In this document: one piece after another, positions 2,795 through 63,922 of the stretch
Position numbering within the stretch: the first letter of the stretch is position 1
How the letters are laid out: each line of letters begins with the position of its first letter
The notes under the pieces: model-generated
What the model was told of the DNA's origin: nothing
Database searches by the model: none
Seen by the model: the letters and a program-made list of their open reading frames with translations, nothing else
Source of the DNA: an uncultured Clostridia bacterium
Lineage (GTDB): Bacteria > Bacillota > Clostridia > Christensenellales > Pumilibacteraceae
Assembly: GCA_947175195.1 (NCBI GenBank)
Contig: CAMWLQ010000002.1
Span: 124,001-188,000 of the forward strand
Length of the DNA: 64,000 nucleotides
Reading direction: 5' to 3'
Translations under genes and position numbers: made by a program

Positions 2795-4893
2795 TATTTT
2801 AAACCTTTGTTCATATTGCCGCGCGTTAATTCTCCGCTATAACTGAAATTCAATGCGGCAAGTATTTCGTTACAATCGGATGTGGTGCAATCAAAAAACA
2901 TATTTTTTGTATTTAACTTGTTTTGGTAATTGGGCACGCAATTTAGCAACTGCCAATAGCAATGCGAAACTTTGTATCGGCGAAGAGAAAATACCCTACC
3001 GCTTTCGTCCTTTAGTTCATCCTTACCGTTGCAGTTGACGCACTTGCCGTATGGACAGTGGCACAGCGTCATAATCGGCGCATTGCCGTATACATAGGCA
3101 AATCCGTTGCCAATGCAGTCCGCCTCAAACGAAGTAACATGCGGATACTGACATTCCCCTATTATATTGTGCCCAACGCCCAAAAGTATAGGCTTATCGG
3201 TCAATCCGAGCGAATAAATATTATTGGAAATTACGCCGTATATTTCGGGATTGTTTATTGCGGCGAGTATTATATCCCTATCGGCGCCACGCATTGTTAC
3301 GGGCAAATTTAGTAGAATAGGCTTATTGATTTTAGGCACGGTAAAATGCGCATAGTCGGCGGGATTGAGTGCAACATAATCGACCTTTTTCAATATTTCG
3401 TCTGTCAGCTGAGCTTGGTTTTCCACCATTAACATCGTACCACTGCCGTCGAAACGGTTATATTTAAAGTCGGTATACGGTAAATTACAACGCTTGATTA
3501 TATAGCCGTCGAGTATTGCTTGCTTTGCAGCTTTGTATACGTTGCGACGAAATTCGTTGAGCGCGGCAATCGGAACAAATATTTCGCTATCTATATCAAC
3601 GCTTATGTTCGGGTTAAACGGATAGTCGGAGGTCTTTTTAAATACTCTTATTACATCATCAGTAGTAATACCGCGAGTTTTTGCGCGCTCGGCAGCAAAA
3701 TCGCTTTTCACGGTAATCACGGATGAATTAGGTAACGTTACGCGCGCCAGCGATGCCTCGCCGCTTTTCAGTACAATATCTACCGATATATCTATATCGC
3801 GTTTTACCGTCTTTACCTTTTCGGAAAGTGCGCCGCTAAACGTTCTTCGCAGCTCGTCGCCCGGTCTTGCGTTACCGTCGCTCAAGATTTTTCCGCCGCG
3901 TTCCGCCGCACCGCAAATTTCGGCGCCGTTTCGAACAACCTTAAATCCGTCGTTCTTTTGCGGGATAAAACCCTTCACAGCAATACTATTTCCGTTGACC
4001 GAGCTGATTTTACCAACGCTAATGCCCATATTGCCCTGTATTTTTGAATATATGACATTAAACGGCGCATCGGCGTTCAAATACCCTTCACAGTAATCAC
4101 CGCGGTTAAAAACCGATTTAAGGGCATTTTTTGCGTCATCAAGCATGTTTTTATAAACGCTGACGGCTGTATAGGCGTATTCATCCGAGCGCATTCGCCC
4201 CTCTATTTTTATGGCGTCCACGCCGAGGTCGCGCAAGTAATCGAGTTTATCGTATAGACATAAATCTTTTGCGGACAAAAAATACCCGCGTTTATCGTGA
4301 AAGTAATACGGCTTGCGGCATAGCTGCATGCACTTGCCGCGGTTACCGCTATAGGATGAGGCAAGCGAGGAAAAGTAGCAGTTGCCCGAAAAACACACGC
4401 AAAGCGCGCCCTGAACAAAATACTCTATTTCTATCCCTGTTTGCTTAATTTCCTTAATGTCTTGCGGCAATGTTTCCCGTGCTAGCACCGCGCGAGCAAT
4501 ACCTAAGTCGCGCAATACCTTAGCGCCGTCGGCATTGTGAATTCCCATTTGCGTGCTGGCATGCAATGCAAAATCGGGCAAGGCATGCTTTAGCTGCTTT
4601 ATGAATCGTATATCTTGAACAATAGCGGCGTCCGCACCCGCCGAATACGCAAATTTAGCGCAATCGACCGCACGGCTCATTTCACCGTCTTTGATCAGCG
4701 TATTTAGCGTTACAAACACCTTTACGCCGTACAAGTGCGCGAGCTCTACGGCATCCGCAAATGCGTTTTCATCAAAGTTTACCGCTTTTGCCCGAGCGCC
4801 GAAATTAGGTAGCCCCAAATAAACGGCGTTCGCGCCGCCGTTTATGCTCGCGATAAGTCCGCTTTTGCTGCCTGCGGGTGCTACTATTTGCAT
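2794..4893 (-). CDS. U32 family peptidase/hydroxylation-type enzyme
   Basis: 699 residues. The N-terminal TIM-barrel part has the U32 hallmark, a Glu-x-Phe-x-x-Gly-Ala-Leu-Cys segment followed by further cysteines (about residues 157-195: EYFVQGALCVCFSGNC and GNRGKCMQLCR). A C-terminal extension carries another Cys cluster (CHCPYGKCVNC), consistent with an iron-sulfur site as in the tRNA-hydroxylating U32 enzymes (TrhP/RlhA type). Annotation as a collagenase-like peptidase is historical; RNA hydroxylation is the better-supported role for many relatives, but I cannot tell which applies. It overlaps pheT and mutS2 by one base each. In Clostridia this gene often sits between pheT and mutS2. Confidence 0.9.
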   Translation of the reverse strand: MQIVAPAGSKSGLIASINGGANAVYLGLPNFGARAKAVNFDENAFADAVELAHLYGVKVFVTLNTLIKDGEMSRAVDCAKFAYSAGADAAIVQDIRFIKQLKHALPDFALHASTQMGIHNADGAKVLRDLGIARAVLARETLPQDIKEIKQTGIEIEYFVQGALCVCFSGNCYFSSLASSYSGNRGKCMQLCRKPYYFHDKRGYFLSAKDLCLYDKLDYLRDLGVDAIKIEGRMRSDEYAYTAVSVYKNMLDDAKNALKSVFNRGDYCEGYLNADAPFNVIYSKIQGNMGISVGKISSVNGNSIAVKGFIPQKNDGFKVVRNGAEICGAAERGGKILSDGNARPGDELRRTFSGALSEKVKTVKRDIDISVDIVLKSGEASLARVTLPNSSVITVKSDFAAERAKTRGITTDDVIRVFKKTSDYPFNPNISVDIDSEIFVPIAALNEFRRNVYKAAKQAILDGYIIKRCNLPYTDFKYNRFDGSGTMLMVENQAQLTDEILKKVDYVALNPADYAHFTVPKINKPILLNLPVTMRGADRDIILAAINNPEIYGVISNNIYSLGLTDKPILLGVGHNIIGECQYPHVTSFEADCIGNGFAYVYGNAPIMTLCHCPYGKCVNCNGKDELKDESGRVFSLRRYKVSHCYWQLLNCVPNYQNKLNTKNMFFDCTTSDCNEILAALNFSYSGELTRGNMNKGLK

Positions 4894-12433: not shown

Positions 12434-13237
12434 TTAAGCAAATGTATTGTAAAAATGCGACAAATCGTAGTATTCTTGACGCGCCTCGCCTAATCCTATG
12501 CCGTGATACTTTTTAAAATCGTTGTACATATGCGCCTCGTCATAGTACCCAAATTTTTCCACACTGTCAAGAGTGCAAAAATTGTTACCGATGCAATCTT
12601 GCCACAATAATTGGTATCTTATCATTTCCGTAACCGTCTTGGGCGAAACGCCTATGCTTTGCATAAACCTTCGTTCAAGCGTGCGCTTGCTTACCACTAT
12701 ACCGCGCGACAAATCGTTTACCGATATATTACCGTTATTACGCACAATATTATACAAGCTGTTCATAACGTCGCAATCGCAACGGTCGTCATGTAAGCCA
12801 ATAAGATAATTTTGCGCTATCTCAACGCGCTCGGCGGTGCTTTTCGCCGCAATTATACTGTCTTTAAACTCGGTAAAATTGTCGAACAAATTTTGAGGGC
12901 TTATTAGTGCATTAAATAATTGTACGGCATTTGTACGGGTAAATTGCGGCACTGCCCACGCATAAAACCGTATACCGAAAATCGCGTTTACGTGAGTAGC
13001 GGTAAAGCTATCCGGGCACATCCCGACAAAACCCGCCCCGTTATTTTCTACGTCGATAATTATATCGGCGCAGCAATCCGGTATTACGCGAGATACTTTA
13101 TCGTATTTATCGCGTTCGCATACCCAAAAACACCGTATGTACGGTCGCAATGCCGGCATCGGTATTATCTCGACAACCCCGCCGTTTTTAGGTAATGCCG
13201 TGCGCGTAGTAAAAATTCGATCCAAAGAAAATGCCAT
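12434..13237 (-). CDS. AraC family transcriptional regulator
   Basis: 267 residues. The N-terminal part (about 20-130) resembles the small beta-barrel sensor domain (PALRPYIRCFWVCE) found in many AraC-type regulators; the C-terminal part (about 165-255) is a double helix-turn-helix with SVNDLSRGIVVSKRTLERRF and DSVEKFGYYDEAHMYNDFKKYHG. The ligand is unknown. The ATG has no SD and lies six bases after a perfect TATAAT, predicting a leaderless mRNA. It probably acts on itself or on the adjacent toroid gene. Confidence 0.88.
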   Translation of the reverse strand: MAFSLDRIFTTRTALPKNGGVVEIIPMPALRPYIRCFWVCERDKYDKVSRVIPDCCADIIIDVENNGAGFVGMCPDSFTATHVNAIFGIRFYAWAVPQFTRTNAVQLFNALISPQNLFDNFTEFKDSIIAAKSTAERVEIAQNYLIGLHDDRCDCDVMNSLYNIVRNNGNISVNDLSRGIVVSKRTLERRFMQSIGVSPKTVTEMIRYQLLWQDCIGNNFCTLDSVEKFGYYDEAHMYNDFKKYHGIGLGEARQEYYDLSHFYNTFA

Positions 13238-13243
13238 GTCGAT

Positions 13244-13272
13244 ATTATATCAAACACGGCAATCTAAGTCAA
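13244..13272 (-). promoter_or_regulatory. promoter giving a leaderless araC-like mRNA
   Basis: Minus strand TTGACT (13272-13267), 17-base spacer, TATAAT (13249-13244), six bases, then the ATG at 13237. The expected transcription start coincides with the A of ATG. Confidence 0.82.
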
Positions 13273-13285
13273 TATATAAAATAAT

Positions 13286-13999
13286 TTAGTCGCCGTAACG
13301 CGAGCGAATTTTACCGAGTATCTTGCTTTCCAGCCGCGAAATTTGCACTTGAGATACGGACAGCGCACGCGCAACCTCTGATTGTGTTTTATCGGCAAAG
13401 TAACGCAAAAGAATTATCTTTTTGTCGCGCGGAGAAAGCTCGTTTATTATTTGCTTAAGCATCATTTTGTCCAGCTTTTCCTCCTCGTTTTCGGACGATT
13501 GCAGCTTATCCATAAGCATACGCCCGCTATCGTCATTGCTTTCGTATATGGAAACCGGATAACGGCACGAATCCATTATGAACACAGCCTCCGACGCCTC
13601 TATATCGAATTCCTTGGCTATTGTTTCGATTGTAGGCGATTCCCCATGTTCCTTTTTGTACAGCTCGGTAAACTTAGCAATCTTGATAGCCGCGGATTTT
13701 GTTCCTCTCGACACCTTGACAGGTCCGTCGTCGCGCAAAAACCGCTTTACCTCGCCCGCTATCATCGGCACGGCATAGGTAGAAAAACGCACCTCATATT
13801 CGAACGAAAAGTTTTTAATCGCCTTTATAAACCCAACACAGCCAAGCTGATATAAATCGTCGTACTCCACGCCCTTGTTTTTGTAACGGCGAATTACCGA
13901 CTTTATAAGCGGTGAATTAGCCGATAATAGCTGTTCTGACGCCGCACTGTCGCCGTTTTGGGCGGCGGCTATTAAGTTTAATGTGTCTTCTTTTTCCAA
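13286..13999 (-). CDS. sigF: RNA polymerase sigma factor SigF
   Basis: 237 residues. Region 2 (GVEYDDLYQLGCVGFIKAIK and the FSTYAVPMIAGEVKRFLRDD stretch), the VKVSRGTK segment, and region 4 (LSVSQVQISRLE) match sigma-F, the first forespore-specific sigma factor. The start is a TTG at 13999 behind an AGAGG SD and overlaps spoIIAB by 22 bases, the usual arrangement in this operon. It is held inactive by SpoIIAB until released by SpoIIAA. Confidence 0.96.
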   Translation of the reverse strand: MEKEDTLNLIAAAQNGDSAASEQLLSANSPLIKSVIRRYKNKGVEYDDLYQLGCVGFIKAIKNFSFEYEVRFSTYAVPMIAGEVKRFLRDDGPVKVSRGTKSAAIKIAKFTELYKKEHGESPTIETIAKEFDIEASEAVFIMDSCRYPVSIYESNDDSGRMLMDKLQSSENEEEKLDKMMLKQIINELSPRDKKIILLRYFADKTQSEVARALSVSQVQISRLESKILGKIRSRYGD

Positions 14000-24148: not shown

Positions 24149-24730
24149 TTAATCTCTATTAATATTTAACGGAAGGTATACCACAACGTCCGTTCCGCAG
24201 TCTACAACCACGCCGCGTTTGGGCGCGGAAAGCACATGCCGTATCATAAAGAAATCGGCAACGCTGCCGAACACGTTGTACATAAGCGGCATGAACGGCA
24301 AAACAAAAAATTCCGCAGGCAAAAGCACGCAAAGCGGAATTAGCAGTGCGCAGTAAAAAACGAACGGAAACGACGCCACAAAAAAGTACTGCGCTTTTGT
24401 GAATATAATATTCGGCGAGCCGCAATAAGCCGCGAACTTTCCGTACTTAATGTACGGTTTTTTGAAACTACTGATTATAATGGCAAATGCGTGTGCAAAT
24501 TCGTGTACGTACGGATATATTAGGCACAACGCCGCACCGCACAATATGTATACAAAATACATTCCCCCGGGAAATCCGAGTATTCTCAAACAGTAATTAA
24601 GTATAATTCCGACTACACAGCTCGCGGTAATTGATATGAGCGCAAAAATATTGAGCTTGTTAAGCATTTTAAATTTGGGATCGGACAAATCCAATCTTTG
24701 TATTGCTTTGTAGTCGTAGACCTTTTTCAT
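24149..24730 (-). CDS. DUF3267-like membrane metallopeptidase
   Basis: 193 residues from the ATG at 24730. Four or more membrane segments surround an HEFAH motif at 76-80, the zinc-binding HExxH signature, with a further conserved-looking segment GSVADFFMIRH near residue 155. This is the layout of DUF3267/site-2-protease-like membrane proteins. The substrate is unknown. The ATG has no SD; a perfect promoter ends six bases before it, predicting a leaderless mRNA. It follows hemW but has its own promoter. Confidence 0.75.
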   Translation of the reverse strand: MKKVYDYKAIQRLDLSDPKFKMLNKLNIFALISITASCVVGIILNYCLRILGFPGGMYFVYILCGAALCLIYPYVHEFAHAFAIIISSFKKPYIKYGKFAAYCGSPNIIFTKAQYFFVASFPFVFYCALLIPLCVLLPAEFFVLPFMPLMYNVFGSVADFFMIRHVLSAPKRGVVVDCGTDVVVYLPLNINRD

Positions 24731-24736
24731 AATCGT

Positions 24737-24765
24737 ATTATAACAAAAAACGTGCAATCAGTCAA
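24737..24765 (-). promoter_or_regulatory. promoter giving a leaderless DUF3267 mRNA
   Basis: Minus strand TTGACT (24765-24760), 17-base spacer, TATAAT (24742-24737), six bases, ATG at 24730. The -35 box overlaps the hemW stop codon. Confidence 0.85.
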
Positions 24766-25867
24766 GCATCAGTTGCTCTATAATGGAGTTCATAACAAAC
24801 ATTTTGTCGGGCGAAATTTTAACAAACCCATTTTCGCAAACAATTAGATTTTCGCTTTTAAGGCTATGCAAAATTTCGGCGTTGCGCTTACAAAAATCAT
24901 ACCCGAATCGCTTGTAAAAATCGTCGACTATTATACCCTTTTCGGTGCGCAAGCGCAGCATAACGTATTCATTGTACAAATCCTTATCGGTCAAATTACA
25001 GCTTTCAGCCCGTGGTGATGCGATATATTCGGCAAGATTATCGCCGTGCATAAACCTTGTGCGTGCACCGTCATAGCCGTGCGCCGCAACGCCGAAACCG
25101 ATATACGGCTTACATTCCCAATATTTTTTGTTGTGTCGGCTCTCCCGCCCACGCAAAGCGAAATTACTCACCTCGTAACGGCAAAAGTCCAAATCATGCA
25201 GCTTACCATAAGCCAAATCGTACATATCGGCTATGCCGTCGTCGGACGGCATGTAACCGGACTTATATAGCGGCGTGCCCTGCTCCACCGTCAAAGCATA
25301 AACGGAAACGTGCGAGCAGTGCCGCGCCACCGTAGTTACGGAATCGATTACGACATCACTTGTTTGTTCGGGCAAGCCTAAAATTATATCGGAAGAAATG
25401 TTGTCAAAGGAATGTGCCAATAGTTCGACGGCGTTTAAGTAATCGGCATAAGTATGCACCCTGCCTATTGCGCGCAAAACCTTGTCGCAAGACGACTGCA
25501 AACCCATGCTTATTCGGTTTACGCCAACGTCTTTACATTCGCAAATAAAATCCGTCGAAACACTTTCGGGATTGCACTCGACGGTTATTTCCGCATTGTC
25601 GGTTACGCAAAAGTTATTTTTTACGGCAGTCTGTATATCCGCAAGCCCGCCGCGAAAAAGGCATGACGGCGTACCACCGCCGATATATATCGTATCTACA
25701 ACGCAGCCCTTAAACTCACTGTCGTTTATTTCTTTAATCAACGTATCTACATATGTTTTTTGCAACGAAAAATCGGGCGTAGACACAAACGCGCAGTATT
25801 TGCATTTTGCCTTGCAAAACGGTATGTGTATATAAACGCCGTATGATTTCTCCGTATCGATTGTCAT
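24758..25867 (-). CDS. hemW: radical SAM HemW (heme chaperone; HemN-like)
   Basis: 369 residues. The N-terminus [19 protein letters not shown] has the radical SAM cluster motif with C18, C22 and C25, and [11 protein letters not shown] follows. It lacks the extra N-terminal part of true coproporphyrinogen dehydrogenase HemN, so it is the HemW type that inserts heme. It overlaps lepA by four bases, the common lepA-hemW arrangement. Confidence 0.94.
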
Positions 25868-27669
25868 TTCTTGTCGTTATCCAGCTTAAGCACGGACATA
25901 AACGCCTCGGACGGAATTTCCACCGTGCCGAACTGACGCATGCGCTTTTTGCCTTCCTTTTGCTTTTCCAAAAGTTTCTTTTTGCGCGTTACGTCGCCGC
26001 CGTAGCACTTTGCCAAAACGTCCTTCCTAAGCGCTTTAATCGTTTCGCGCGCTATAACCTTGCCGCCGATAGCAGCCTGAATGGGAATTTCAAACAGCTT
26101 GCGCGGAATTACGTCCTTCAGCTTTTCCGCCATAGCACGTCCGCGAGAGTAAGCCTTGTCGCGGTGAACGATTATGCTGAGCGCGTCGCAAATATCGCCG
26201 TTAAGCATTATATCCAGCTTGACCAAGTCGCTCTTGCGGTAACCGGCCTGCTCGTAATCGAAACTTGCATATCCGCGCGATCGGCTTTTCAGCCCGTCAA
26301 AAAAGTCGTAAACAATTTCGTTAAGCGGCATCGTGTACGTTATTAGCACGCGAGTTTTTTCAATATATGTCATGTTCAGGTACTCGCCGCGCTTGTCCTG
26401 ACAAAGCTCCATTATCGGTCCGATATATTCGGGCGGCGTGTATATGGACGCCGTAACGACAGGCTCTTCCATATAGTCGATCTCACCCGCAGGCGGAAGG
26501 TTTGACGGATTTGTAACTTCGGTCATGCCGCTGCTCGTATATACCTTGTACACAACGCCCGGTGCTGTTGTGATTATATCCAGGTCGAATTCTCGCTCTA
26601 ACCGCTCCTCTATGATTTCCATATGGAGCAGTCCTAAAAATCCGCAACGGAAACCGAAACCGAGCGCAGACGACGTTTCAGGCTCGTAAAACAGCGAGGC
26701 GTCGTTCAGCTTAAGCCGCTCCAAAGCGTCCTTTAAGTCCTCGTACTTTGACCCGTCAGCAGGATAAATTCCGCTGTAAACCACGGGCTTGACTTTTTTG
26801 TACCCGGGGCACGGCTCGGACGTGGGATTGTTTGCGTAAGTGATTGTGTCGCCCGGTGCGGTATCGGCTATAGACTTGATGGACGCGCACAAATAACCTA
26901 CGTCGCCCGCCGACAAGCGGTCGATAGATACAGGTTTGGGTTGGAATACGCCCACCTCGGTTACGTCGTACACCTTGCCGTTGGACATCATAGTAATACG
27001 ATCGCCCGCCTTTGCCGACCCGTCGATTATACGTACAAGGCAAACCGCGCCCTTATAGTTGTCGTAATAAGAATCGAATATCAACGCTTTAAGGGGTTTA
27101 TCCACATCGCCCTGCGGCGGCGGCACACTTTGCGCAATCGCGCGCAGCACGTCATCTATATTGACGCCCTCTTTGGCGGAAATGCACGGCGCCTCGTCGG
27201 CAGGCAAGCCGATAATATCCTCTATTTCCTTTTTGACCTCATCCGGTCTAGCGGCGGGCAAATCGATTTTGTTGATAACAGGCACTATTTCCAAATTATT
27301 ATCGAGTGCCAAGTAAACGTTCGCAAGGGTTTGAGCCTCCACGCCCTGCGCCGCGTCTACAACCAATACTGCGCCCTCGCAAGCCGCAAGCGAGCGCGAC
27401 ACCTCGTACGTAAAGTCAACATGTCCGGGTGTGTCAATCAAATTAAACGTATATCGCTGCCCTTCATACTCATAAAACATTCGGACGGGCGTGAGCTTTA
27501 TGGTAATACCGCGCTCACGCTCTATATCCATACTGTCCAGCATTTGGTCGGAAAGTTCGCGTTTTGTAAGCGTAGCCGTCGCCTCCATAAGCCTATCCGC
27601 AAGCGTCGATTTTCCGTGATCGATATGCGCTATTATACAAAAATTGCGTATAAATTTTTGTTTGTCCAT
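25864..27669 (-). CDS. lepA: elongation factor 4 (LepA)
   Basis: 601 residues from the ATG at 27669. The N-terminus [20 protein letters not shown] fits the family, with G1 AHIDHGKS at 14-21, DTPGHVDF (G3) and NKIDLPAA (G4). The LepA-specific C-terminal domain follows (about 490-601). It is a ribosome-bound GTPase that back-translocates or remodels stalled ribosomes. The start has no SD and lies six bases after TATAAT, so the mRNA is probably leaderless. First gene of lepA-hemW. Confidence 0.98.
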
Positions 27670-27675
27670 ATCTAA

Positions 27676-27704
27676 ATTATAACATATAGCGCTAAAAACA
27701 GCAA
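27676..27704 (-). promoter_or_regulatory. promoter giving a leaderless lepA mRNA
   Basis: Minus strand TTGCTG (27704-27699), 17-base spacer, TATAAT (27681-27676), six bases, ATG at 27669. The -35 is weak (3 of 6) but the -10 is perfect. Confidence 0.75.
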
Positions 27705-41573: not shown

Positions 41574-42872
41574 TTACTTTCGTTTATTTCGACCGATCGC
41601 ATCCAAAAACTGTTTTATTTTTTGTTCGTTGGGATTATCCTGCGGGCGGTAAAACTTTTCGCCCTGCAACGACTTGGGCAAATACTGCTGCGTAATATAC
41701 GCCGGTGAATCGTGCGGATATATGTACTCCTCGTCACTGTCGTCAGGCAGCTTGTTGTTTTTGAGGTAGTCGGGAACAACGTCGTCGGCATGTTCACGCA
41801 CTGCGTTTTGTGCCGCCGCTTTTGCCAAATATACCGAATTGGATTTTGGCGCGGTTGTCACTTTGATTATAGCGTGAGCAAGCGACAAATACCCTTCCGG
41901 CACGCCTATGTGCTCGTATGCGGTGAGCGCAGACACAACAACACTGAGCGCCGAGGAGTCAGCCATTCCCACGTCCTCGCTGGCATGCGCCATCATTCGG
42001 CGGAACAGCAAAATAGGATCGCAGCCCGCCTCTATAAGCCTAAACGCCCAATACAACGCCGCGTCGGGATCGCAGCCGCGCAGCGACTTGCAAAACGCCG
42101 AAAGCATATCGTAGTACATGCTGTCGTCAATGGAAAGCACGCGCTGCTGCGTAGATTCCTGCGCCACCTCTTTGTCGATTATTATTTTTCCGTCCTCGGA
42201 CGGCGGCGTAGTAATAACGGCAAGCTCCAACGCGTTGTACGCATTGCGCAAATCCCCGTTTGCCGCCCAAGCGAAATGACGGTATGCCTCGTCCTTTACC
42301 TCAAGGCTGTAATTACCCAAACCTTCGGGCGCTTGCACCGCGCGCTTTAGTCCGACTATAACGTCCTCGTCGGTAAGCGACCTAAGCCTAAATACTCTGC
42401 AACGCGACACTATTGCTCGCGTCATAGCTACAAACGGATTTTCGGTGGTAGAGCCGATAAATATTATACTCCCCGTTTCGATTGCGGAAAGTACGCAGTC
42501 CGACTGCGCCTTGTTCCAACGGTGACACTCATCCAAAAGCAAATATGTGCGCTTGCCGTACATGCGCAAACGCTCGGTAGCCTCATCTATCACGCGTTTT
42601 GCGTCGCCTACGCCCGAAGATACTGCGTTCAGCTTGACAAACTCACTTTTTGTTGTAGCTGCAATAATCCCCGCAAGCGTAGTCTTTCCCGTGCCAGGCG
42701 GTCCGAAAAATATACAGCTGCCCAGCCTGTCCGCCTGTATTGCGCGCATCAATAGCGACCCATTGTGTAACAGGTGCTTTTGCCCTATAAATTCCCCGAG
42801 GGTTTGCGGGCGCATACGCTCGGCAAGCGGCGCCGCCTTTGTTTTATTGTCCGACAAATCGAATAAATCCAT
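41574..42872 (-). CDS. rarA: replication-associated recombination protein RarA
   Basis: 432 residues from the ATG at 42872. Walker A GPPGTGKT at 57-64, Walker B LLLDECHRWNKAQ (usually DEIHRF), and the SRCRVFRL sensor region. The C-terminal half carries the tetramerisation domain (FRRMMAHASEDVGMADSSAL). RarA is an AAA+ clamp-loader-like protein acting at stalled forks. No SD precedes the ATG, and TATAAT lies six bases upstream, so the mRNA is probably leaderless. Confidence 0.96.
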   Translation of the reverse strand: MDLFDLSDNKTKAAPLAERMRPQTLGEFIGQKHLLHNGSLLMRAIQADRLGSCIFFGPPGTGKTTLAGIIAATTKSEFVKLNAVSSGVGDAKRVIDEATERLRMYGKRTYLLLDECHRWNKAQSDCVLSAIETGSIIFIGSTTENPFVAMTRAIVSRCRVFRLRSLTDEDVIVGLKRAVQAPEGLGNYSLEVKDEAYRHFAWAANGDLRNAYNALELAVITTPPSEDGKIIIDKEVAQESTQQRVLSIDDSMYYDMLSAFCKSLRGCDPDAALYWAFRLIEAGCDPILLFRRMMAHASEDVGMADSSALSVVVSALTAYEHIGVPEGYLSLAHAIIKVTTAPKSNSVYLAKAAAQNAVREHADDVVPDYLKNNKLPDDSDEEYIYPHDSPAYITQQYLPKSLQGEKFYRPQDNPNEQKIKQFLDAIGRNKRK

Positions 42873-42878
42873 GCAATC

Positions 42879-42907
42879 ATTATACCACGCACGCCGCGCA
42901 TAATCAA
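42879..42907 (-). promoter_or_regulatory. promoter giving a leaderless rarA mRNA
   Basis: Minus strand TTGATT (42907-42902), 17-base spacer, TATAAT (42884-42879), six bases, ATG at 42872. Confidence 0.82.
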
Positions 42908-62355: not shown

Positions 62356-62838
62356 CTAACGATTTTTGCCGTAAATATCGATTATTTGCTTTGCCGTACT
62401 CGGCACTACATATCCGCTTATATCTCCACCAAGCGCGGCTACCGTGCGTACTACAGTGGACGATACATGCCCGTACGCGGGATCGGTAATCAAAACAACC
62501 GATTCCACACCGCACAGCGATTTGTAAACCGCGGTTAAATCGCGCTCGTATTCCAAATCATTGCTGTTTCGCACACCGCGTATAAGCGCGCAATCACCCT
62601 TTTTCGCCGCATAGTCGGAAAGTAGTCCGCAAAAGCTTTCCACCGTGACGTTAGCAATTTCCGCAACGGCGGCTTTTACTATTTCCGTGCGAACAGAAAG
62701 CGGCGCGGTATTTTTTCCCGTTTCCTCAGCCACAGCCACAATAACTCCATCAAACAGTCTTGCCGCGCGCTCTACTATATTCCTATGTCCCAATGTGAAC
62801 GGATCAAACGTTCCCGCAAAAATCGCTTTCACTTTCAC
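62356..62838 (-). CDS. coaD: phosphopantetheine adenylyltransferase
   Basis: 160 residues. Nucleotidyltransferase motif AGTFDPFTLGH at 8-18 and the C-terminal VSSTVVRTVAALGGDISGYV segment. It makes dephospho-CoA, linking to CoaBC elsewhere in the window. Its start lies inside rsmD, overlapping by 35 bases. Confidence 0.97.
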   Translation of the reverse strand: MKVKAIFAGTFDPFTLGHRNIVERAARLFDGVIVAVAEETGKNTAPLSVRTEIVKAAVAEIANVTVESFCGLLSDYAAKKGDCALIRGVRNSNDLEYERDLTAVYKSLCGVESVVLITDPAYGHVSSTVVRTVAALGGDISGYVVPSTAKQIIDIYGKNR

Positions 62839-63361
62839 CTCGCACTATCTCGAAAGCCGACACACCGAATACTCGGCTGTCTATTATGTTGTCAATCGGC
62901 ACCGTTTTCAACGGTCTATCGGTTGCGTGTTCCAAAATCGCCACGCCCGACGACATCAACATGTCGTACTTGACGAGCAGCCTGTACACTTCCTCGGCAT
63001 AGTCGGTCTTGTACGGCGGGTCGCAAAACACCAAGTCAAACTTTTCCGTCTTGAGCATGCGCATTGCCCGCCTGAAATCGGACTGTACCGTTTGCGCCGT
63101 AATCTTGATTTTATCCAAATTGGCATGCACGTTTTTGCAGTCTATGTCAACAAATACGCAAGATTCCGCCCCGCGCGACAGCGCCTCTATACCGAGCGCA
63201 CCACTGCCGCAAAACATATCGAGGCACCTTTTGCCGCGCAAAAGCCCCTTCGATTCCAGCATGGAAAACAAACTACCCTTTACCATGTCGGTAGTCGGTC
63301 GCACCTCGCCGCGCGGCGAAATAAGCTTTGCGCCCTTGTGTTGTCCGGAAATAACTCGCAT
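62804..63361 (-). CDS. rsmD: 16S rRNA (guanine966-N2)-methyltransferase RsmD
   Basis: 185 residues. N-terminus MRVISGQHKG, SAM motif CLDMFCGSGALGIEALSRG, and the catalytic DPPY (FDLVFCDPPYKTDY, about 111-124). It methylates G966 of 16S rRNA. Three bases after fthC. Followed closely by coaD, a common pairing. Confidence 0.96.
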   Translation of the reverse strand: MRVISGQHKGAKLISPRGEVRPTTDMVKGSLFSMLESKGLLRGKRCLDMFCGSGALGIEALSRGAESCVFVDIDCKNVHANLDKIKITAQTVQSDFRRAMRMLKTEKFDLVFCDPPYKTDYAEEVYRLLVKYDMLMSSGVAILEHATDRPLKTVPIDNIIDSRVFGVSAFEIVRGESESDFCGNV

Positions 63362-63364
63362 ACC

Positions 63365-63922
63365 CTAAAAGTATATCACATTCTTATCCGTAACGCAACA
63401 ATCGAGGGGTATATCGGTGCATTCGGGTTGGAACTTTATTGCTTGTCCGCTAAACGCAAGCCCGATTTTGAATGTACTGTGTTCGGCAAAAAACCTATCG
63501 TAACAGCCTTTACCATAACCTATGCGGTAGCCGCGCTCGTTAAAACCGAGTAGCGGCGTTATGCAAAAGTCTATTTTTGACGGAATATACGAATTATCAT
63601 AACATTCGCGCGGAAGATTGCCCGTTTTGTCCGCCACGCCGCGCGACAAAAGTCTTCGCGGCGTAATGATTCCATCTTGCGTATACGGCGCGAACACTGT
63701 TACACCATTTTTTACCGCCAGCTTGTCCAGCAAATACGCTGTATCAACTTCCGAGCCGATAGACATATACACCATAACGTTGCCGCCGACAAGCTGCAGC
63801 GCCCTATCCGCAATCGCACGCGAAAGCAACGGCTTGTCCGAAAGCTCGTTGCGGTACCGCTTGAGCATTGCTCTAAGCTCCGCTTTGTTCGTATCATATA
63901 TAAATTCGTTCCGCTCGTCCAT
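63365..63922 (-). CDS. fthC: 5-formyltetrahydrofolate cyclo-ligase
   Basis: 185 residues. The RIGYGKGCYDRF motif (about 132-143) and the PLLGFNERG segment are family signatures. It converts 5-formyl-THF to 5,10-methenyl-THF. The ATG at 63922 overlaps the preceding gene by 29 bases; a start near residue 19 is possible but has no better support. Confidence 0.93.
   Translation of the reverse strand: MDERNEFIYDTNKAELRAMLKRYRNELSDKPLLSRAIADRALQLVGGNVMVYMSIGSEVDTAYLLDKLAVKNGVTVFAPYTQDGIITPRRLLSRGVADKTGNLPRECYDNSYIPSKIDFCITPLLGFNERGYRIGYGKGCYDRFFAEHSTFKIGLAFSGQAIKFQPECTDIPLDCCVTDKNVIYF

Follow-up and report, generated by a model that had tools for sequence, protein, structure and literature searches.

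Promoters six bases ahead of the start codon suggest leaderless mRNAs in an uncultured clade of Clostridia

The window, by which we mean the whole 64,000-nucleotide stretch of DNA analysed here, carries on its minus strand a gene for a putative zincin peptidase of 193 aa (DUF3267, Pfam family PF11667; 24149..24730) which we predict to be leaderless. Read on the minus strand from 24765 to 24728, the sequence ahead of it consists of a -35 box TTGACT (24760..24765), 17 bases, a -10 box TATAAT of the extended type with TGT before it (24737..24742), the six-base discriminator ACGATT (24731..24736) and then the ATG, whose A at 24730 would be the transcription start. A radical-SAM/HemN_C (hemW-like) gene, identified by Pfam, lies upstream on the same strand (24758-25867); the first base of its TGA stop codon is the last base of the -35 box, and the ATG of the DUF3267 gene stands 27 bases past its end.

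An earlier note on this DNA had claimed that four minus-strand genes share one architecture, and the sequence bears this out: TTGnnn, a 17-base spacer, TATAAT, six bases (hereafter N6) and ATG are common to the DUF3267, lepA, rarA and AraC-like genes (4/4), the latter three also being predicted leaderless. For lepA (25864..27669; LepA_C and GTP_EFTU matches in Pfam, 601 aa) the boxes are TTGCTG at 27699..27704 and an extended TATAAT (TGT) at 27676..27681, for rarA (a rarA/mgsA-type AAA+ ATPase gene, PF12002, 432 aa; 41574..42872) TTGATT at 42902..42907 and an extended TATAAT (TGG) at 42879..42884, and for the AraC-like regulator gene (267 aa; 12434..13237) TTGACT at 13267..13272 and an extended TATAAT (TGA) at 13244..13249. 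All six boxes were located by sequence scan, the -10 boxes of lepA and rarA in relatives as well. The product of the last gene matches DUF6597 above the Pfam cut-off and HTH_18 below the curated cut-off; directly upstream of it, at 13286-13999 on the minus strand, lies a gene for a sigma-70 family factor (regions 2 and 4, with region 3 below cut-off). The -35 boxes are imperfect in each of the four genes. Leaderless genes of Actinobacteria often have a weak -35. By the usual sigma-A (sigma-70) criterion of a TTGACA-like -35 at 17 +/- 1 bases from TATAAT, the spacer is 17 in all four, and by the criterion for so-called TA-led genes, in which the first base of a -10-like box lies about 12 bases before the start, the position is exactly -12 in all four. 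That no SD precedes these starts, as the earlier note also said, is true but forced, because a -10 box at -12 fills the SD position. The promoter scan added a weaker fifth case, TATACT at 63370..63375, eight bases ahead of the ATG of a minus-strand gene at 62804-63361 whose Cons_hypoth95 match we take to denote an RsmD-like methyltransferase; TTGCGT lies 17 bases upstream of the TATACT, and the expected leader would be 0-2 nt long.

Could such an arrangement arise by chance? AT-rich intergenic DNA will often have a TATAAT near an ATG, and the four cases were picked by eye. The window holds six TATAATN6ATG sites, where 100 shuffles gave a mean of 1.01 and a largest count of 5; of these, four lead into frames of 193, 267, 432 and 601 codons, and the other two, at 3166 (minus) and 60796 (plus), open just 9 and 3 codons. 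The source genome (1.78 Mb in 32 contigs, 95.7% complete, with the window in contig 2) was sampled over 464 kb, in which a simple script called 409 genes; start calls are rough. A promoter was defined as a TTG-type -35 at 16-18 bases from a -10 with at least 5/6 matches, and its distance was measured to the ATG opening a called gene. The distances proved bimodal, with 4 promoters at N0-4, 23 at N5-8, 5 at N9-16 and 47 at N17-45, and the gap is as expected if a transcript has either no leader or one long enough to hold an SD. Exactly N6 was found for 16 promoters among the 409 genes, as against 8 summed across N9-22 (Poisson probability 3.6e-18 relative to the mean of N9-22). The spacer is 17 bases in 14 of these 16 genes and 18 in two, a tally to be read knowing that a TTG at 16-18 was required for listing and that the script takes 17 first.

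Shuffling argues in the same direction. The earlier note had proposed comparing TATAAT followed by ATG at five to eight bases with shuffled upstream regions; in our sample the count at N6 is above chance: the 16 full promoters at N6 compare with a mean of 0.24 and a maximum of 2 in 200 rounds of dinucleotide-shuffled upstream regions, and TATAAT alone at N6 was found in 12 genes of the sample (shuffle mean 0.65, maximum 3). Genome-wide, where the same note had asked if the spacing is any more frequent than chance, there are 43 TATAATN6ATG sites against 21 for the reversed pattern, and with an N12 spacing the counts are 27 against 21. A degenerate -10 (TAnnnT) taken alone does not peak at N6 (46, with the reversed motif at 53), and the class therefore rests on near-consensus boxes plus a -35.

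The genes downstream of the 23 promoters at N5-8 are varied, 19 having a Pfam family match and 4 having none. Besides the four window genes they include those for DNA polymerase I, a fumarase subunit, a PP-loop ATPase, AddB, a GHMP kinase, a family-2 glycoside hydrolase, a cation efflux protein, a metallo-beta-lactamase-fold hydrolase, a trypsin-like peptidase, NAD kinase, ribulose-phosphate epimerase, a pseudouridine synthase and the RsmD-like methyltransferase (Pfam Cons_hypoth95). On the best reading, leaderless candidates would thus form a minority class of about 4-6% of genes (16/409 at N6, 23/409 at N5-8). A normal SD system seems to operate alongside this class, because SD-like motifs were counted in 218/409 genes of the sample (a loose count, with no random baseline, of GGAG or GAGG ahead of any start codon lying up to 45 bases from the called one) and an anti-SD, searched as a pattern with at most one mismatch, is present in 7/8 relatives. 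The genome's own 16S anti-SD was not found in the assembly, whose 16S matches cover model positions 9-637 of 1533 and lie at a contig end.

Relatives' upstream regions were compared for three of the genes, DUF3267, rarA and lepA. With our own loci included, a -10 box stands at exactly N6 in 11/18, 13/30 and 12/30 loci, respectively; the DUF3267 loci L149 and L150, which had no tblastn match, were left out, the more distant of the 30 rarA and 30 lepA loci may be non-orthologues, and where a protein alignment did not begin at the start codon the script shifted to a nearby in-frame ATG. Among the distinct N6 rows (10, 13 and 11 for DUF3267, rarA and lepA) pairwise identity is 75-80% in the -35 and 83-97% in the -10, against 35-48% in the spacer and 37-40% in the discriminator, although only the -35 figure is independent because the rows were picked for a good -10. 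Across the relatives, then, the two boxes stay conserved and the bases of the spacer and discriminator change. An SD motif was flagged in 0/43 rows with a -10 at N6-8 and in 13/22 rows without a -10 within N0-30, a contrast that is in part forced because a -10 at -12 occupies the SD position. The lepA genes of G009 and G011 (L184 and L186) are exceptions, lacking the layout although their proteins are 98% and 97% identical, and the lepA loci L183, L185 and L194 have N7 instead of N6. Among the best 80 loci the closest LepA is that of "Clostridiales bacterium isolate SC0399_S13_7" (97%), followed by those of Candidatus Ornithoclostridium, a genus placed in Christensenellales by NCBI, and of one other record, both at 75%. 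A further arrangement is seen at four rarA loci (L161, L165, L168 and L169) and the DUF3267 locus L139, in which a -10-like box lies at N11-12 and no SD motif was flagged; the leader there would be about five bases long, neither leaderless nor SD-led, and L168 has no visible -35.

How far does the excess reach? We took the count of TATAATN6ATG over that of the reversed pattern, summed per group. This ratio is 2.42 in 20 genomes of the genus (our own included), 2.52 in 17 other genomes of the family, 1.82 in 24 genomes from other families of the order, 2.01 in 9 genomes of the class and 1.22 in 289 genomes from other classes of the phylum. The N12 control, which covered the genus, family and order groups, gave 1.14, 1.21 and 1.36 (other families of the order); because the N6 ratios are high and the N12 ratios low, the excess belongs to the spacing. 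It is strongest in this family but not confined to it: a ratio of at least 2 is reached by 65 of the 289 genomes from other classes, and similar excesses therefore occur elsewhere. At the level of genes, a genome of the same order (G052) replicated our own result, with 8 full N6 promoters against a shuffle maximum of 2 and 6 cases of TATAAT alone against a maximum of 2. In a genome of the same genus (G016) there were 6 full promoters against a maximum of 1, and its 3 cases of TATAAT alone merely equal the shuffle maximum of 3. In a genome of another class (G352), chosen because its ratio was high, the signal was weak (3 genes, equal to the shuffle maximum of 3), and none of 558 genes had a full N6 promoter in 67 lepA neighbourhoods taken from genome records that are mostly Bacillota by title (L064-L130), which is no deficit because the shuffles expect 0.24. 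Very high N6 ratios in G282 (same class, 38 against 3) and G101 (same phylum, 25 against 4) suggest that a strong leaderless class exists in other lineages too.

If transcription starts at the ATG, some trace of this might be found in the bases around it. Counting from the -10, the seventh base corresponds to the A of the ATG in N6 genes; in leadered promoters it is mostly a purine (35/42 in our own sample, 34/43 in G016, 25/29 in G052), and the base preceding the ATG is a pyrimidine in 29/29 N6 cases. This preference for a purine is blurred: G052 shows it as strongly at position 1 (25/29), position 9 comes close in G016 (32/43), and the mixed records L064-L130 have a purine at position 7 in just 32/57. 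The pattern agrees with a start at the ATG and lends it weaker support, but is no proof. A T before the ATG, taken as a leaderless mark, is strong against distant genomes (Fisher 7e-14). We dropped it as a stand-alone mark, because the SD-led genes of the clade share the bias: T precedes their ATG in 57% of cases in our own sample (the window plus L031-L050), 48% in L211-L230 and 62% in L231-L250, compared with 31% in G352 and 37% in the mixed records, and G is avoided (3%, 4% and 8% in the three clade samples, respectively). Being so confounded, the mark was not used alone, and the pyrimidine found in all 29 cases partly reflects a clade-wide habit.

We consider it very probable that the promoters are of the ordinary sigma-A type and are placed so that transcription begins at the start codon itself, giving leaderless mRNAs that begin with AUG. 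RNA polymerase would start at the A of the ATG and produce an mRNA without a leader, and a 70S ribosome, or a 30S subunit with IF2 and initiator tRNA, would bind the 5'-terminal AUG directly, in the way established elsewhere for mRNAs of this kind. The boxes themselves, their constant spacings of 17 and 6 bases, the counts in excess of several controls and the conservation of the boxes in relatives are all directly observed. The earlier note's suggestion of a leaderless class is accordingly well supported by spacing statistics, shuffles and conservation in relatives, but leaderless transcription itself is what we infer.

Three other accounts have to be weighed against this. Pure coincidence has on its side the two window sites that open no gene and the sizeable background in the genome-wide count (21 reversed against 43); the spacing controls and the conservation in relatives speak against it and the shuffles refute it as a general account, so that we regard it as extremely improbable for the class, though it can still hold for single sites. 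We also think it very unlikely that TATAAT at -12 to -7 is no -10 box at all and instead an AU-rich, non-SD translation signal within a longer leader. A U-rich bias near -10 has been described in some phyla, with binding by ribosomal protein S1 suggested (PMC5397173), and the base before the ATG is biased in the clade's SD-led genes too, but against this reading stand the TTG-type -35, which lies 17 bases upstream in all four window genes and is conserved in relatives while the intervening bases drift, and the exact N6 register, which is that of a transcription start.

The remaining alternative is compatible with the leaderless reading: the N6 promoter yields a leaderless transcript, but most of the protein is made from a second, longer one. 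This has been reported for potentially leaderless genes of C. phytofermentans (PMC5171806), and the DUF3267 gene, beginning 27 bases behind its upstream neighbour, may also be read from upstream transcripts, which counts against an exclusively leaderless mode there. Set against this are the absence of a flagged SD in all 43 rows with a -10 at N6-8, partly forced by the position of the -10, and the finding that, upstream of the lepA ATG, its frame holds a single other start codon, a TTG 48 bases away that precedes the promoter. On balance we judge the alternative unlikely.

Leaderless genes as such are not new. From the same signal, Zheng et al. (2011; PMC3160421) predicted them in 207/953 bacterial genomes, among them 56/209 Firmicutes, and described a Firmicutes average of 4.2% of genes, with the class found mainly in Lactobacillales and Mycoplasma; the word "clostridia" is absent from their main text. 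The genes described here resemble their TA-led genes in having a Pribnow-like box whose first T lies about 12 bases before the start codon, in being a minority, and in the form of the box (TAtAAT with a TG peak in low-GC genomes), but differ in also keeping a recognisable -35 at a 17-base spacer. Likewise, the leaderless genes of Actinobacteria in that account have a -10 immediately before the start codon and no SD, whereas they make up about 20% of genes and carry a TAnnnT signal (PMC3160421). By dRNA-seq, leaderless mRNAs amount to 8.6% in S. pyogenes and 9% in S. agalactiae, and for 81% of the S. pyogenes set the S. agalactiae counterpart is likewise leaderless (PMC6431027); these are also Firmicutes, although start points were measured there and are predicted from sequence here, and lepA, rarA, polA, ispE and rpe are not named in the text of that report. 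In Clostridia with mapped starts, 15 potentially leaderless genes are given for C. difficile (PMC7438776), and in C. phytofermentans leaderless cases make up 4% of one TSS class, and such genes generally have an additional TSS together with an RBS (PMC5171806). The earlier note had called such mRNAs not typical of Firmicutes, which is only partly right because streptococci have been measured and 56/209 Firmicutes genomes predicted; the two start-mapped Clostridia do show few, and the note's surprise is justified in part, better for Clostridia than for the phylum as a whole. Our searches of open-licence PMC found no literature joining "leaderless" with Christensenellales or Christensenellaceae and, since the kind of gene is known in other bacteria, we conclude that, as far as these searches show, the clade is new for leaderless genes and the mechanism already known.

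The observations would carry an already documented initiation mode into an uncultured clade within the Clostridia, where the two start-mapped species considered here show little of it, and they come with a concrete gene list and a sharp prediction, that the 5' end is the A of the ATG. Start callers that lean on SD motifs could misplace or doubt such starts, and the occurrence of the same gene in SD-led and leaderless forms among relatives makes the clade usable for studying change of initiation mode. It is quite unlikely, in our estimation, that Christensenellales-like Clostridia possess an order-wide, heritable leaderless set, in which lepA, rarA and further genes for repair, RNA modification and housekeeping would recur, forming a second translation-initiation regulon that reacts as a unit to the IF2/IF3 ratio or to how many 70S ribosomes are available. 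On contig 1 of the source genome (G000), two divergent N6 promoters lie within 86 bases of each other (122487-122572; L001 and L002), preceding the genes for the fumarase subunit and the metallo-beta-lactamase-fold hydrolase.
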